From Halorubrum sp. JWXQ-INN 858 (GTDB taxonomy: Archaea > Halobacteriota > Halobacteria > Halobacteriales > Haloferacaceae), in the NCBI RefSeq assembly GCF_009806985.1, contig NZ_WUAX01000016.1:308976-372975 (forward strand): a DNA stretch of 64,000 bases, given 5' to 3'. The translations under genes and the position numbers were made by a program. This document shows, piece by piece, positions 14,645 through 56,328 of this stretch (position 1 is its first letter; the number at the start of each line of letters is the position of its first letter). The notes under the pieces are model-generated. The model was not told the DNA's origin and did no database searches. It saw nothing but the letters and a program-made list of their open reading frames with translations.

Positions 14645-14740
14645 TCCGGCGCCGATACCCGAACGGAGCGACGCCGGACGGAGCGACGCCGGACGCCCGC
14701 GACGTCCCGCGACGACGTCCTCGGAACCGGGGAGGCCGCG

Positions 14741-14852
14741 TTCCGTCCGGATCCACTCCGTAGACGCGTTCCGTCCGGATCCACTCCGTAGACGCGTTCC
14801 GTCCGGATCCACTCCGTAGACGCGTTCCGTCCGGATCCACTCCGCGGACGCG
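14741..14852. repeat. 28-bp tandem repeat, four copies, downstream of hop
   Basis: Four 28-bp units, the first three nearly identical, each contain TTCCGTCCGGATCCACTCCG. They lie between the convergent ends of the 57-residue gene and hop. A second pair of about 15 bp (GGAGCGACGCCGGAC twice, from about 14666) precedes them. No promoter or gene is seen in the 14645-14913 gap. Confidence 0.92.
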
Positions 14853-14913
14853 TTGCTCCCGCGGAGCGTCGGCCCGAAAAACGAGTCGGCAGCGGCCGCG
14901 CGTTCGGTCCGGT

Positions 14914-27282: not shown

Positions 27283-28011
27283 ATGCCAGCCACAGTCGTG
27301 ACCGGCTCGTCGCGGGGCATCGGGGCGGCGATCGCCGAGCGGTTCGCCGAGGACGGCTACGACGTCGCGGTGAACTACCACACGAGCGAGGACGCCGCCG
27401 ACCAGGTCGCCGAGGCGGTGCGCGACCGGGGCCAGGAGGCGATCGTCGTCGGCGCGGACGTCTCGGACCCCGACGCCGCCGCCCGGCTCGTCGACGCCGC
27501 GGCCGACGCCTTCGGCGGCGTCGACCACGTCGTCAACAACGCCGGGATCGACCAGCACGTGTACACCGAATCCCTCGACCCCGCCGACTTCGACCGTGTC
27601 ATGGACGTCAACGTCAACTCCGCGTTCGCCGTGACGAAGGCCGCACTGCCGCATCTCCGGGCGTCGGCCGACGACCCGTCGGTGACGAACGTCTCGTCGA
27701 TCCTCGCACACACCGGCGCGCCGATCGAGTGCCACTACGCCGCCTCGAAGGGGGCGCTCCTCTCGTTGACCCGCAGCCACGCCGGCGACTTCGCGCCCGA
27801 CGTGCGCGTGAACGCGATCGCGCCCGGCCACGTCGAGACGGGGATGACCGCCGACCGGACGGCCGCGGAGAAACGCGAGGAGCTGGCGCGGATCCCCGTC
27901 GAGCGGTACGGCCAGCCCGCCGACATCGCCGACGCCGCCGCCTACCTCCGCGACGCGGCGTTCGTCACCGGCGAGACGCTGAACGTGAACGGCGGGGAGC
28001 TAATGGGGTGA
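27283..28011 (+). CDS. Short-chain dehydrogenase/reductase, FabG-like
   Basis: This NAD(P)-dependent oxidoreductase has a Rossmann fold. The cofactor loop is TGSSRGIG (residues 6-13), NNAG is at ~87, the catalytic Ser lies in NVSSILAH, and Tyr-X3-Lys is in HYAASKGAL (~150). The family C-terminus ETLNVNGGELMG is present. The 242-residue length is standard. FabG-like 3-oxoacyl-ACP reductase is the nearest label, but archaea lack typical fatty-acid synthesis and the substrate may be another 3-ketoacyl or polyol compound. No neighbouring gene specifies it. The last 35 bases of the gene are duplicated in tandem downstream. Confidence 0.87.
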   Translation: MPATVVTGSSRGIGAAIAERFAEDGYDVAVNYHTSEDAADQVAEAVRDRGQEAIVVGADVSDPDAAARLVDAAADAFGGVDHVVNNAGIDQHVYTESLDPADFDRVMDVNVNSAFAVTKAALPHLRASADDPSVTNVSSILAHTGAPIECHYAASKGALLSLTRSHAGDFAPDVRVNAIAPGHVETGMTADRTAAEKREELARIPVERYGQPADIADAAAYLRDAAFVTGETLNVNGGELMG

Positions 28012-28080
28012 CGCCGAACGCGAACGGCGGAGAACCGATGGGGTGACGCCGAACGCGAACGGCGGGGAGCCGATGGGGTG
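27976..28080. repeat. 35-bp tandem repeat whose first copy is the 3' end of the SDR gene
   Basis: Three 35-bp units run at 27976-28010, 28011-28045 and 28046-28080. The first encodes the gene's last residues, and the stop codon straddles the junction. The two extra copies also carry GAACGGCGG, GATGGGGTG and the TGA. Copies two and three differ from each other at only a couple of positions. Confidence 0.95.
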
Positions 28081-28094
28081 ATTCCCGCCGCCGC

Positions 28095-30879: not shown

Positions 30880-31899
30880 ATGACACGGCTCCGGGCGATG
30901 AGCTACAACGTTCGCTACGACAACCGGAACGACCACCACGACGCCTGGTACGTGCGTCGCGACGGCGTGGCGGACCTCGTCCGGTTCCACCGCCCCGACG
31001 TCGTCGGGTTCCAGGAGCCGCTCGCCGAGCAGCGGGAGGACCTGGGCGACCGTCTCCCGGGCTACGAGTTCGTGGGCCGCGGGCGTCGGGGCGACGGCGA
31101 GGGAGAGGGTTGTCCGGTCGCGGTCCGAACGGACCGGTGGGACGTCGTCGACGACGGAACGTTCTGGCTCTCGGAGACGCCCGCGGAGCCGTCGACCGCG
31201 TGGGACGCCTCCTACCCGCGGATCGCCACCTGGGCACGCCTGACGCTGCGGCGCGACGGGACGGACGACGCTTCGATCGGCGGGATCGACGACGGCCCGG
31301 CCGACGACGACCCCGCCGATGGGGCATCGACCGACACCTCGTTGATCGTGATGAACACCCACCTCGACCACGTCGGCGTCAGGGCTCGGCGCGAGTCCGC
31401 GCGGCTACTCCGTGACCGGGCCGCCGACCTCGCCACGATCGCGGGCCCGGAAGGAGGTGCGAAAGGGGGCGAGTCCGGAGCACGAGCGCAGGCGCGCACA
31501 CCGGTCGTCCTCGTCGGCGACTTCAACTGTACGCCCGGCTCGGAACCCCACCGGATCCTGACGGCGCTCGACGGGACGGACGCGGGCCGAGACGGGACGG
31601 ACGCGGGCCGAGACGAGACGGACGAGGATCGAGACGGGACGGACGCGGGCCGAGACGAGACGGACGAGGATCGAGACGGCGGGGCAGCCCTCCGCGACGC
31701 CGCCCGCGACGCGACCGTGCGTCACGGCCCCGCGACGAGCCTCACCGACTTCGCAAACCTGATCGACGGGCGGCGGATCGATCACGTCCTCGTCTCCCCG
31801 GCCGTCGACGTCGAGGCGTTCGCGACGCTCGCCGACCGCGACGACCGCGGACGCTACCCGTCCGACCACCTCCCCGTGCTCGCCCGGCTCTCGCTGTGA
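30880..31899 (+). CDS. Endonuclease/exonuclease/phosphatase family protein with repeat insertion
   Basis: DNase I-like fold of 339 residues. MSYNVRYDN (~7) is the first strand, VVGFQEPLAEQ carries the metal-binding Glu (~50), MNTHLDHVGVRARRES (~158) holds the catalytic His region, VVLVGDFNCTPGSEP (~210) the Asp-x-Asn pair, and DHVLVSP with YPSDHLPVLARL the C-terminal Asp-His. All catalytic residues are intact, so it is a metal-dependent phosphodiesterase. DNA, RNA or small phosphoesters are possible substrates. Between strands (residues ~230-265) sits a 35-residue insertion of five seven-residue units (DGTDAGR/DETDEDR) from a 21-bp tandem repeat. A second ATG at 30898 is possible. Confidence 0.85.
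   Translation: MTRLRAMSYNVRYDNRNDHHDAWYVRRDGVADLVRFHRPDVVGFQEPLAEQREDLGDRLPGYEFVGRGRRGDGEGEGCPVAVRTDRWDVVDDGTFWLSETPAEPSTAWDASYPRIATWARLTLRRDGTDDASIGGIDDGPADDDPADGASTDTSLIVMNTHLDHVGVRARRESARLLRDRAADLATIAGPEGGAKGGESGARAQARTPVVLVGDFNCTPGSEPHRILTALDGTDAGRDGTDAGRDETDEDRDGTDAGRDETDEDRDGGAALRDAARDATVRHGPATSLTDFANLIDGRRIDHVLVSPAVDVEAFATLADRDDRGRYPSDHLPVLARLSL
31570..31674. repeat. 21-bp in-frame tandem repeat, five copies, in the EEP gene
   Basis: Five exact-length units of 21 bp, of two alternating subtypes, encode acidic heptads within the protein. The alternation suggests a secondary duplication of a two-unit block. Confidence 0.93.
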
Positions 31900-31933
31900 G
31901 CGTTTGAAACGTCCCACGTACCGAGCCACGGCG

Positions 31934-31942
31934 CTTTTTAAG
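31934..31942 (+). promoter_or_regulatory. TATA box of the VOC gene
   Basis: CTTTTTAAG is centred about 29 bases before the ATG at 31967, giving a leaderless start. Confidence 0.6.
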
Positions 31943-31966
31943 TCGGTGCCGAACGACGGGACGCCC

Positions 31967-32317
31967 ATGTCCGGGATCGTCTTCTTCGCGACCGAGAACC
32001 GCGAGGCCGTCGTCGACTTCTACACGGGGCCGATGGGAGCCGAGGTGTGGCTCGAACAGCCCGACTGCACGATACTCCGCCACGACAACCTCCTGTTCGG
32101 CTTCTGTTCGCGCGACCGAACCGACGACTGCGGGATCGTCACGTTCGTCTACCCCGATCGCGGCGGCGTCGACGCCGCACACGACCGCCTCGGCGACGCC
32201 GCTCGCGAGGAGCCGCACGAGAATCCGACGTACGACATCTATCAGTTCTTCGCGATCGACCCCGACGGCCGGACCGTCGAGTGCCAGGCGTTCCTCGACG
32301 ACGCCGTCGATCTATAA
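31967..32317 (+). CDS. Glyoxalase/VOC superfamily protein
   Basis: This 116-residue protein is one complete VOC module: FFATENREAVVDFYTGPMGAEVWLEQ (first beta-alpha-beta with the FY pair) and FFAIDPDGRTVECQAFLDD (the second, with the C-terminal metal-ligand Glu in VECQ). A dimer would form the active site. The substrate cannot be told; glyoxalase, extradiol dioxygenase and antibiotic-binding folds share the signature. The frame extends upstream to 31904 but the TATA box fixes the ATG at 31967. Confidence 0.82.
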   Translation: MSGIVFFATENREAVVDFYTGPMGAEVWLEQPDCTILRHDNLLFGFCSRDRTDDCGIVTFVYPDRGGVDAAHDRLGDAAREEPHENPTYDIYQFFAIDPDGRTVECQAFLDDAVDL

Positions 32318-32384
32318 CGTCCGACGGGGACGGTGCCGTCGACGTGTAAAGTCCGACGGAGACGGCGCGGAGTCGACCCCGACC

Positions 32385-32462
32385 GTCACTCCCGGGCGGG
32401 CAGCCGGACAGTCACTCCCGGGCGGGCAGCCGGACAGTCACTCCCGGGCTGGCAGCCGGACC
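32385..32462. repeat. 26-bp tandem repeat whose last copy is the 3' end of the second kinase gene
   Basis: Units begin at 32385, 32411 and 32437. Read on the minus strand each encodes VRLPARE and a TGA stop, identical to the end of the kinase gene; the two outer copies are therefore duplicated gene ends lying beyond the stop. A looser duplication (GTCCGACGG-containing, about 32322-32364) lies next to it. Confidence 0.93.
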
Positions 32463-34498
32463 GTCACGGTGGTCCCCGACGACGTCGTCGCGTCGACATC
32501 GCCGTCGAGCGTCGTGACGATCCAGAACACCAGCCACAGCCCGAGCCCCTGCCCGTGCACGAGCGGCGTCTCCTCGCCGGATTCGAGAACCGACCGTTCG
32601 TCCGCGGGGATCCCGGGTCCGTCGTCGGTCACGGCGACCGCGACGTCGGCGTCGGTGACCGTCACCTCGACGTCGACGGCCGGGGGCGTCCCCCCGTGTT
32701 TGGCGGCGTTGTCGAGGAGCTCCCACAGCGCGGTCTCCACGCGCGGGAGCGTCCTCGCGACGGCCTCCTCGGGGGCATCGACGGTCACCGAGACCTCGGG
32801 ATAGCGCGTCCGCAGCTGGTCGACGAGCCGGTCGACGATCGGGACGAAGTCGACCGACTCCAGCTCGACCGACAGGTCCCGGTTCTCCTCGATCCGCTGT
32901 GCGGACTCGCTTAAGTCGATCAACCGGTTCGCGGTCTCCCCGATGAGCGCCGCCCGCTTTTCGGCGTCACCCTCGAGTTCGTCCGCGAGCAGTCCGGCGT
33001 AGCCGCTGATGACGGTCATGTCGTTCCGGAGGTTGTGCCGGAGGACCCGGTTGATGACGCCTATCAACTGCTCGCGCTGGCGGCGTTCGGTCGCGTCGCG
33101 GGCCATCAACAGGACGCCGACGATGTCGTCGGGCGTCCGCGCCGCGTCCGGCACGCTTCCGTCGTAGATCGGGGCCCCACGCACGTCCGCGTAGACGGTC
33201 CGGCCGGCCTTCGTCTTCAGCGGGAAGTCCCGCGCTTGGGTCGTCTCGCCCTCCAGTACCACCGACAGCTTCTCCATCGCCCAGTCGGTCGTGTCGGCGT
33301 CCGGGTGGGTGACGGAGAGAGGTCGCCCCTCGAGCTCCGCGGGCGCGTAGCCGAGGAACGCCTCGACGGACGGCGAACAGTAGGTGAACCGGCCGTCGAG
33401 GTCGGCCCGGAAGACGGAGTCGAACGTCGTGTCGACGACCGCGCGATAGATCTCGGTCCGTTCGTCCAGCTCCCGCTCGCTGTCCGCGAGCGCGCGACGC
33501 TGCCGCTCGTCGCGCGTCACGTCGACGAACGACACGATCCGGGCCGTCGAGTCGTCGAACGCCACGGCGCTCGTCGTGACCGAGTAGTACCGGGTCCCGT
33601 CGCCGTCCGCGTCCTCGCGGTCGTGGCCGTCGTCACGAGCGAGGATCCGTTCGTCGCCGTCGACGACGGCCGCGACGGCCGGCAGGACCGTGGCCAGTCG
33701 GTCGCCGCGCGCATCCGCGAGCTCGGGGAACGTCGCCTCGGCGGCGGGGGAGTGGTCACGGATCGTCCCCTCGGCGTCGAGGAAGACGACCGCGTCGTCG
33801 TCGTGGTCGTCCCTTCGGGCGGCCAGGAACCGACCGTCGAAGGCGAACAGGACGCCGATCGCGAACGCCGCCACCCCGAGCGGTGCGTAGAGGACGTTTA
33901 TCAGCCACGGTGTCGTGAGCGCACCGACGTCGAGGAGGACCGGCAGCCCGAGCAGCGCCGTCAGCGCGCTGAGCGGCCCGGTGTCGTATCCGGACAGGGC
34001 GTACTGCTCGAGGAGCACGAACAGCCCCAGCGCCGAGAGCACGTACGCCAGCCCGGTGACGCTCCAGTGGAGGACGCCGTGTTCGATCGCGAGGTACGCG
34101 AACGGCGTCGTCGCCTCCGTCGCCGAGAAGTACAGGCCGTGGAGCGGGTTCGTGACCTTGACGAGCGACACCGTCACGAAGACCACGAGCCCGAGCCGCC
34201 GCAGCGCCGGCCGTCGGTGGTAGCGTCGGTTCGTGTACGCGGAACAGAAGTAGAGCCAGGGCCAGACGGTGGCGAAGCCGAGGACGAGCCCGACGAGATA
34301 CGTCGGCTCCCGGAGCGGGTCCGGGACGAGGAAGAACGCGACGGTCGACAGCGACCACGCCCCGGTCGTCGCGAGCAGCCAGACCAGGCCCCGCCGGACG
34401 TCAGGGAGGTCGAACGCCCGTGCTCGCGGGATCGCGGCCAGACAGACGAGCCCGCTCGCCGCGAACACCGCCACGTAGATCAGGCTCGCGGCGTTCAC
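32438..34498 (-). CDS. Seven-helix sensor histidine kinase with two PAS domains
   Basis: About seven N-terminal helices (residues 1-220) are followed by PAS-A (~230-340; VVFLDAEGTIRDHSPAAEA), PAS-B with PAC (~355-465; FRADLDGRFTYCSPSVEAFL), a HisKA segment with H-box LRHNLRNDM (~490) and an HATPase domain (LWELLDNAAKHGG, VTDDGPGIP, GQGLGLWLV). It starts with GTG at 34498 (VNAASLIYVAVF). A minus-strand TTTATTTTACC near 34539-34550 would give a leader of about 20 bases. It shares the 7TM plan with the kinase at 23-1711 but adds a second PAS domain. No response regulator is adjacent. Confidence 0.9.
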   Translation of the reverse strand: MNAASLIYVAVFAASGLVCLAAIPRARAFDLPDVRRGLVWLLATTGAWSLSTVAFFLVPDPLREPTYLVGLVLGFATVWPWLYFCSAYTNRRYHRRPALRRLGLVVFVTVSLVKVTNPLHGLYFSATEATTPFAYLAIEHGVLHWSVTGLAYVLSALGLFVLLEQYALSGYDTGPLSALTALLGLPVLLDVGALTTPWLINVLYAPLGVAAFAIGVLFAFDGRFLAARRDDHDDDAVVFLDAEGTIRDHSPAAEATFPELADARGDRLATVLPAVAAVVDGDERILARDDGHDREDADGDGTRYYSVTTSAVAFDDSTARIVSFVDVTRDERQRRALADSERELDERTEIYRAVVDTTFDSVFRADLDGRFTYCSPSVEAFLGYAPAELEGRPLSVTHPDADTTDWAMEKLSVVLEGETTQARDFPLKTKAGRTVYADVRGAPIYDGSVPDAARTPDDIVGVLLMARDATERRQREQLIGVINRVLRHNLRNDMTVISGYAGLLADELEGDAEKRAALIGETANRLIDLSESAQRIEENRDLSVELESVDFVPIVDRLVDQLRTRYPEVSVTVDAPEEAVARTLPRVETALWELLDNAAKHGGTPPAVDVEVTVTDADVAVAVTDDGPGIPADERSVLESGEETPLVHGQGLGLWLVFWIVTTLDGDVDATTSSGTTVTVRLPARE

Positions 34499-55629: not shown

Positions 55630-56285
55630 GCGAGGAGCCCGAAACCGACACGGACGCCGAGGAGGAGCCGGAGGTCGCGGCCGACGAGCCCGATCCGGAC
55701 GCCCCGGCGGCGAGCGAGGCGGCCAACGAGAACGCACTGCTCTTCGGCGTCTGGGACGTCACGGAGATCGCCTACGCCGACCCCTCGACGAAACGCTACA
55801 TGACCGTGACCCCCATCGCGCACACGATGGGTCGTCACGCCTCCAAGCAGTTCAAGAAGTCCGAGATCTCGCTCGTCGAGCGGCTCATCAACCGTCTCAT
55901 GCAGACGGACGAGAACACGGGCAAGAAACAGCAGGCGACCCGGATCGTCCGCGACGCGTTCGACATCGTCCACGAGCGCACCGAGGAGAACCCGGCACAG
56001 GTGCTCGTCACGGCCGTCGAGAACGCCGCGCCGCGAGAGGAGACCGTCCGCCTGAAGTACGGCGGGATCTCCGTCCCGAAGGCCGTCGACGTCGCGCCCC
56101 AGCGCCGCGTCGACCAGGCCCTGCTGTTCATCTCCGACGGCGTCGCCAGCGCGACGTACAAATCGACCACCTCGGCCGCCGAGGCGCTTGCGAGCGAGCT
56201 GATCGCCGCCGCCGACTACGACGTGCAGACGTACTCCATCTCCCAGAAGGAGGAGCGCGAGCGCGTCGCCGCCGCGGCCCGCTAA
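55626..56285 (+). CDS. rps7: 30S ribosomal protein S7
   Basis: The 219-residue 16S-binding protein has an acidic haloarchaeal N-terminal tail (residues 1-45, rich in Glu/Asp/Ala), then the S7 core: [18 protein letters not shown] (~80), [42 protein letters not shown] and an end rich in Ala/Arg. It organises the 3' major domain of 16S rRNA. It is coupled to rps12 by ATGA overlap. The last bases and the TAA are duplicated directly after the gene. Elongation factor 2, often next in archaeal str operons, does not follow. Confidence 0.96.
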
Positions 56286-56328
56286 CGCGGACCGCGAACG
56301 CAGCCCGCTAACGCGGGCCGTTAACGCG
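56277..56328. repeat. 26-bp tandem duplication of the 3' end of rps7
   Basis: Units at 56277-56302 and 56303-56328 both begin GCCCGCTAACGCG. The first includes the gene's last codons and TAA stop; the second repeats them outside the gene. Confidence 0.85.

Follow-up and report, generated by a model that had tools for sequence, protein, structure and literature searches.

In the window, the 64,000-nucleotide stretch of Halorubrum sp. JWXQ-INN 858 DNA analysed here, a gene for a 7TM-PAS histidine kinase on the minus strand converges on a VOC-like open reading frame. The stop codon of the kinase gene (32438-32440) is spanned by a 26-bp tandem array, which TRF placed at 32381-32467 (period 26, 3.3 copies, 95% matches, score 153) and which comprises 3.35 copies when read unit by unit. 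The features of the locus are:

31904..32317, plus strand: VOC-like open reading frame; start uncertain, the gene caller took 31946
32303..32365, plus strand: second array in the convergent gap, two copies of 32 bp across the VOC-like stop; copy 2 repeats AVD[L/V]-stop
32381..32389, minus strand: GTGACGGTC at the far array edge, a partial copy; the other half of the proposed seed
32386..32411, minus strand: unit copy 3, past the kinase stop
32412..32437, minus strand: unit copy 2, past the kinase stop
32438..32463, minus strand: unit copy 1, the last codons VRLPARE and the stop TGA of the histidine kinase
32459..32467, minus strand: GTGACGGTC at the gene-side array edge, coding, within TVTV; one half of the proposed seeding direct repeat
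32438..34498, minus strand: histidine kinase with HisKA_7TM, PAS and HATPase_c

The array at the kinase gene end

Read on the minus strand, the array consists of GTGACGGTCCGGCTGCCAGCCCGGGA, then GTGACTGTCCGGCTGCCCGCCCGGGA twice, then GTGACGGTC. Copies 2 and 3 are identical, copy 1 differs from both at two positions, and the nine bases GTGACGGTC open and close the array. The kinase ORF (32438-34498, minus strand) ends in ...TVTVRLPARE-stop. An earlier note on this DNA had described three minus-strand copies of a 26-bp VRLPARE-stop unit, two of them beyond the true stop. Both TRF and the unit alignment bear this out and add one partial copy past the stop; the note's interval of 32385-32462 corresponds to these three units, with the register offset by one base. 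The convergent neighbour carries the label of similar annotated plasmid genes and VOC-family genes, and no Pfam family was found in this ORF (31904..32317). The two genes are separated by only 120 bp, 105 bp of which are covered by the two arrays.

The kinase array had been presented as the second independent case in the window, which proved an understatement: four window arrays cross a stop codon (27975-28081, 32303-32365, 32381-32467 and 56273-56327). They show no tie to sensor kinases, since other cases end a dehydrogenase gene and the VOC-like gene. The array at 27975-28081 (35 bp x 3.1) lies across the stop of the short-chain dehydrogenase gene. The window also holds an intergenic array that is among its cleanest (14737-14854, 28 bp x 4.2, 97% matches) and an in-frame 42-bp (2 x 21) repeat, present 2.6 times, inside a gene of the endonuclease/exonuclease/phosphatase family (31570-31679).

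The 26-bp array is not a product of chance, since when the 864-kb own-genome sample described below was resampled with a first-order Markov model, 0 arrays reached the threshold used, against the 226 observed. The unit has three sites in its own genome, all within this array, while a search of 51 congeneric genomes returned one site with 3 mismatches (in G027), against two matches for a reversed-pattern control. As the genome is a draft in 16 contigs, an assembly artefact has to be weighed, together with a mobile or CRISPR-like repeat. The copies, however, differ by substitutions, the unit occurs nowhere else in the genome, and no spacers separate the repeats, so that we regard an origin of this kind as scarcely credible, and we rejected assignment to a CRISPR array or a mobile repeat.

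Comparison with 12 congeneric kinase orthologues (L002-L013, 47-58% protein identity) revealed equivalent gene ends: all 12 share an LP motif that is followed by 3-6 residues and the stop. None of these 12 oriented sequences carries an array across the stop. With equivalent ends and no array over the stop in the orthologues, the kinase seems to have undergone neither extension nor truncation. The orthologue L002 has a different array of 34 bp x 2.3, located 22-99 bp past its stop (minus strand, approximately L002:1402-1478).

Tandem arrays and gene boundaries across the genome

We scanned 864 kb of the genome (28% of the total), consisting of the window and 40 stretches of 20 kb. Arrays were defined by a TRF score of at least 80 and a period of 10-100, with overlapping hits reduced to the best one. 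Genes were taken from a self-trained codon-usage caller written for the purpose, whose 773 genes are uncertain as to individual starts and small genes. Among the 226 arrays, 71 lay in genes, 38 crossed a stop, 2 crossed a start and 115 were intergenic, a pattern that was stable at score thresholds from 60 to 150. We also noted a repeat with a unit of 303 bp (L092:935-3300, corresponding to G000:C13:120935-123300; 7.8 copies, 80% matches), which possibly belongs to a repeated-domain protein.

The period was divisible by three in 69 of the 71 in-gene arrays, a preservation of frame not expected of random assembly errors, as compared with 13/38 stop-crossing and 39/115 intergenic arrays. Starts were avoided, with 2 crossings observed and 13.4 expected, and founding units covered 0.3% of the positions in the 15 bp either side of a start but 7.2% at 60-75 bp upstream. 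Around stops the increase was smooth: coverage was 1.7% at 30-15 bp within the gene, passed through 4.3% and 6.4%, and reached 10.1% at 30-45 bp past the stop.

The array copies could in principle be functional, acting as a transcription terminator, a 3' UTR element or back-up stops. Indeed, because 26 equals 2 modulo 3, the three TGA codons fall into three reading frames. Across the genome, however, the periods of stop-crossing arrays are spread 13/13/12 over the residues modulo 3, the units differ from array to array, and the kinase orthologues lack the array altogether. The array RNA was predicted to fold no better than shuffled sequence (z 0.61), and we rejected an intrinsic terminator after finding 0 sites with a GC-rich hairpin followed by a T run, in a scan that covers archaeal terminators poorly. 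We therefore consider a function of the copies very improbable.

The genome scan that the earlier note had called for, which compares stop overlaps with chance, gave an answer that depended on the null: stop overlap exceeded naive chance, and it equalled expectation once like was compared with like. When the 155 noncoding arrays were placed randomly outside genes at unit length, 38 stop crossings stood against 15.2 +/- 3.5; at founder length (the unit plus the flanking partial repeat), they stood against 21.5 +/- 4.4, with a maximum of 33 in 400 trials. The naive null is wrong on two counts: it allows placement next to starts, which arrays almost never occupy, and in long gaps, which contain few of them. 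We therefore restricted placement to permissive space, that is, to gaps of up to 400 bp with the 30 bp upstream of starts barred. Under this null, 33 of 122 arrays crossed a stop versus 31.2 expected (P 0.68), with 10 zone-violating arrays and the arrays in longer gaps dropped, so that 5 of the 38 stop-crossers fell outside the test. Although the promoter zone had been suggested by the same data as were tested, leaving it out with gaps of up to 400 bp gave a similar result (33 versus 27.4, P 0.24). With gaps of up to 600 bp and no promoter zone, the excess was likewise gone (33 versus 26.1, P 0.16), since arrays are rarer in long gaps; when only the 40 or 60 bp upstream of starts were barred in the genome-wide null, it persisted.

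These data also bear on the possibility that gene 3' ends are mutational hot spots, in which slippage triggered by transcription termination, R-loops or convergent RNA polymerases would make arrays arise preferentially at stops. Such a bias is suggested by the number of arrays in convergent gaps (43 versus 34.9 expected, with gaps of up to 400 bp and the 30-bp zone), which also counts against a neutral reading, and by the coverage maximum of 10% at 30-45 bp past stops. Stop overlap nevertheless stayed at expectation whichever of the 12 combinations of gap limit and promoter zone was used (P 0.13-1.0), and divergent gaps were at expectation once promoter zones were barred (26 versus 23.4). Per available position, array edges were less dense across the stop (0.0016-0.0022) than over the 60 bp that follow (0.0027-0.0041). 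Attraction to stop codons, significant with the naive nulls, thus vanished with the local null and was rejected, and we consider a hot spot at gene ends unlikely. Given a count at expectation and an edge density that is lower across the stop than after it, the stop forms the near edge of a permissive zone and is not itself a target.

Proposed origin of the array

An indication of how such arrays begin came from their flanks. In 13 of 18 arrays with a period of 25-60, at least 95% identity and no indels, for which the detection threshold carries no bias to long partial copies, the flanking partial repeat measured at least 6 bp, as against 0.7% at random positions and distances. If whole units are duplicated, the partial copy must predate the event as a direct repeat, which suggests that short direct repeats seeded most arrays. 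In the remaining 5 of these 18 clean long-period arrays the flanking repeat was 0-1 bp, so that a seed is not needed by every array.

We propose that the 26-bp array is a neutral minisatellite that arose by slippage, or unequal exchange, between short direct repeats, and we assign this reading a probability of roughly 0.8. The ancestral gene end would have contained two 9-bp copies of GTGACGGTC, the first within the last kinase codons and the second immediately beyond the stop. Slippage between them, or unequal exchange, would have duplicated the intervening 26 bp, and a second step would have produced three copies of the unit. As the duplicated piece starts in the gene and ends past the stop, copy 1 retains the original stop and the protein sequence is unaffected, which would leave selection blind to the event. 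The 47-58% identity of the orthologues is too low for the ancestral 9-bp repeat to be visible in them, and the seed is therefore read from the array itself.

Genome-wide, the same process would be filtered by its consequences: within genes, only duplications whose period is a multiple of three would survive; at starts and promoters duplications would be eliminated, whereas gene ends and other spacers would retain them. Most likely, the array lies over the kinase stop because gene ends are among the few sites at which such a duplication is harmless; this genome contains many other duplications that appear equally benign. A neutral minisatellite is supported by the frame rule in genes, the avoidance of starts, the stop count at the permissive-space expectation, the flanking repeats, the orthologues with no array over the stop and a single-unit orthologue of another array. 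The latter concerns the stop-crossing array C13:274226-274292 (21 bp x 3.2), which has a stop in each 21-bp unit: its orthologue in G042 has a single unit, the same stop end and a gap that is 90 bp shorter, and this end offers a view of the state before duplication. Both flanks could be located in the sampled relatives for 16 of the 155 noncoding array sites (in 400 kb of G001 for only 1 of 155), and at 12 of these 16 the gap was longer in our genome than in the relative. At 5 of the 16 sites the relative also had some repeat, indicating that certain spacers may be prone to repeats.

Repeat density and relation to known systems

The own-genome sample contains 155 noncoding arrays in 864 kb, or 17.9 per 100 kb, while 23 congeners (40 or 100 kb each) yielded 44 in 1.1 Mb, or 4.0 per 100 kb, and ranged individually from 0 to 12.5. 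This corresponds to a density approximately 4.5 times that of the sampled congeners, whose samples are small and come from few regions. A further 400 kb of G001 contained 22 arrays (5.5 per 100 kb), of which 7 extended across a stop and none across a start. When we counted decamers that recur four times at equal spacing, our genome had 42.8 per Mb. The corresponding values were 0, 0, 10 and 30 per Mb for four individual congeners and 8.8 per Mb for a set of 20 congeners sampled in 40 stretches; G001 is in both congener sets, with different stretches. A 2019 survey (PMC6749651, table 1), which used a related but not identical measure, reports 8.8 per Mb in H. lacusprofundi and values as high as 89 in Methanosarcina. 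Within the genus the repeat load ranks as high, though it is no record; the density is mildly unusual and the mechanism ordinary. Loss of MutS was rejected as the cause of the high density, as PF00488 was found in 52/52 genomes, and loss of mismatch repair is thus not needed to explain the arrays. Tentatively, and with less confidence than we attach to the origin of the 26-bp array, this Halorubrum lineage may have an unusually high rate of tandem duplication seeded by short repeats, which would lengthen spacers and copy gene tails into noncoding DNA, as a result of an alteration of replication or repair that is peculiar to the lineage and distinct from MutS loss.

A search of open-licence PMC papers returned no paper on stop-crossing tandem repeats in haloarchaea. 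The closest parallel is provided by the tandem repeats of Borgs, whose first units, as described in PMC9879509, lie within gene ends, whose unit lengths are divisible by three within genes and mostly not between them, and whose flanking partial repeats are taken as seeds. Flanking partial repeats and a frame kept within genes are likewise found here, so that the arrays are arranged alike without being members of that system: by the same description, Borg repeats are perfect, A-rich and extrachromosomal, whereas ours are imperfect, GC-rich and located on haloarchaeal genome contigs. Our finding is an imperfect, haloarchaeal instance of this already known arrangement.

Prokaryotic satellites and minisatellites, in the account of PMC6749651, consist of head-to-tail units of 10-200 bp with mostly unique sequence and are attributed to replication errors. 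The array fits this unit range (26 bp x 3.3, 95%); at 3.35 copies it falls below the at least four copies by which that survey defines satellites and is a minisatellite in the broader sense only. Halobacteria satellites in the survey (PMC6749651) mostly have a period divisible by three, whereas the arrays reported here are mostly noncoding. Deletions between direct repeats of about 4-19 bp are described for Haloquadratum strains (PMC3119063), a size shared by many flanking repeats in our sample; the process described there removes DNA, while here DNA was gained.

Single repeats that straddle a stop mean little. The whole set, in contrast, shows selection sorting tandem duplications in a compact genome, with the frame kept inside genes, almost none at starts and free passage across stops, and how far promoters extend can be judged from the regions that lack arrays. 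The high array density in this lineage provides a handle on what sets the haloarchaeal duplication rate.
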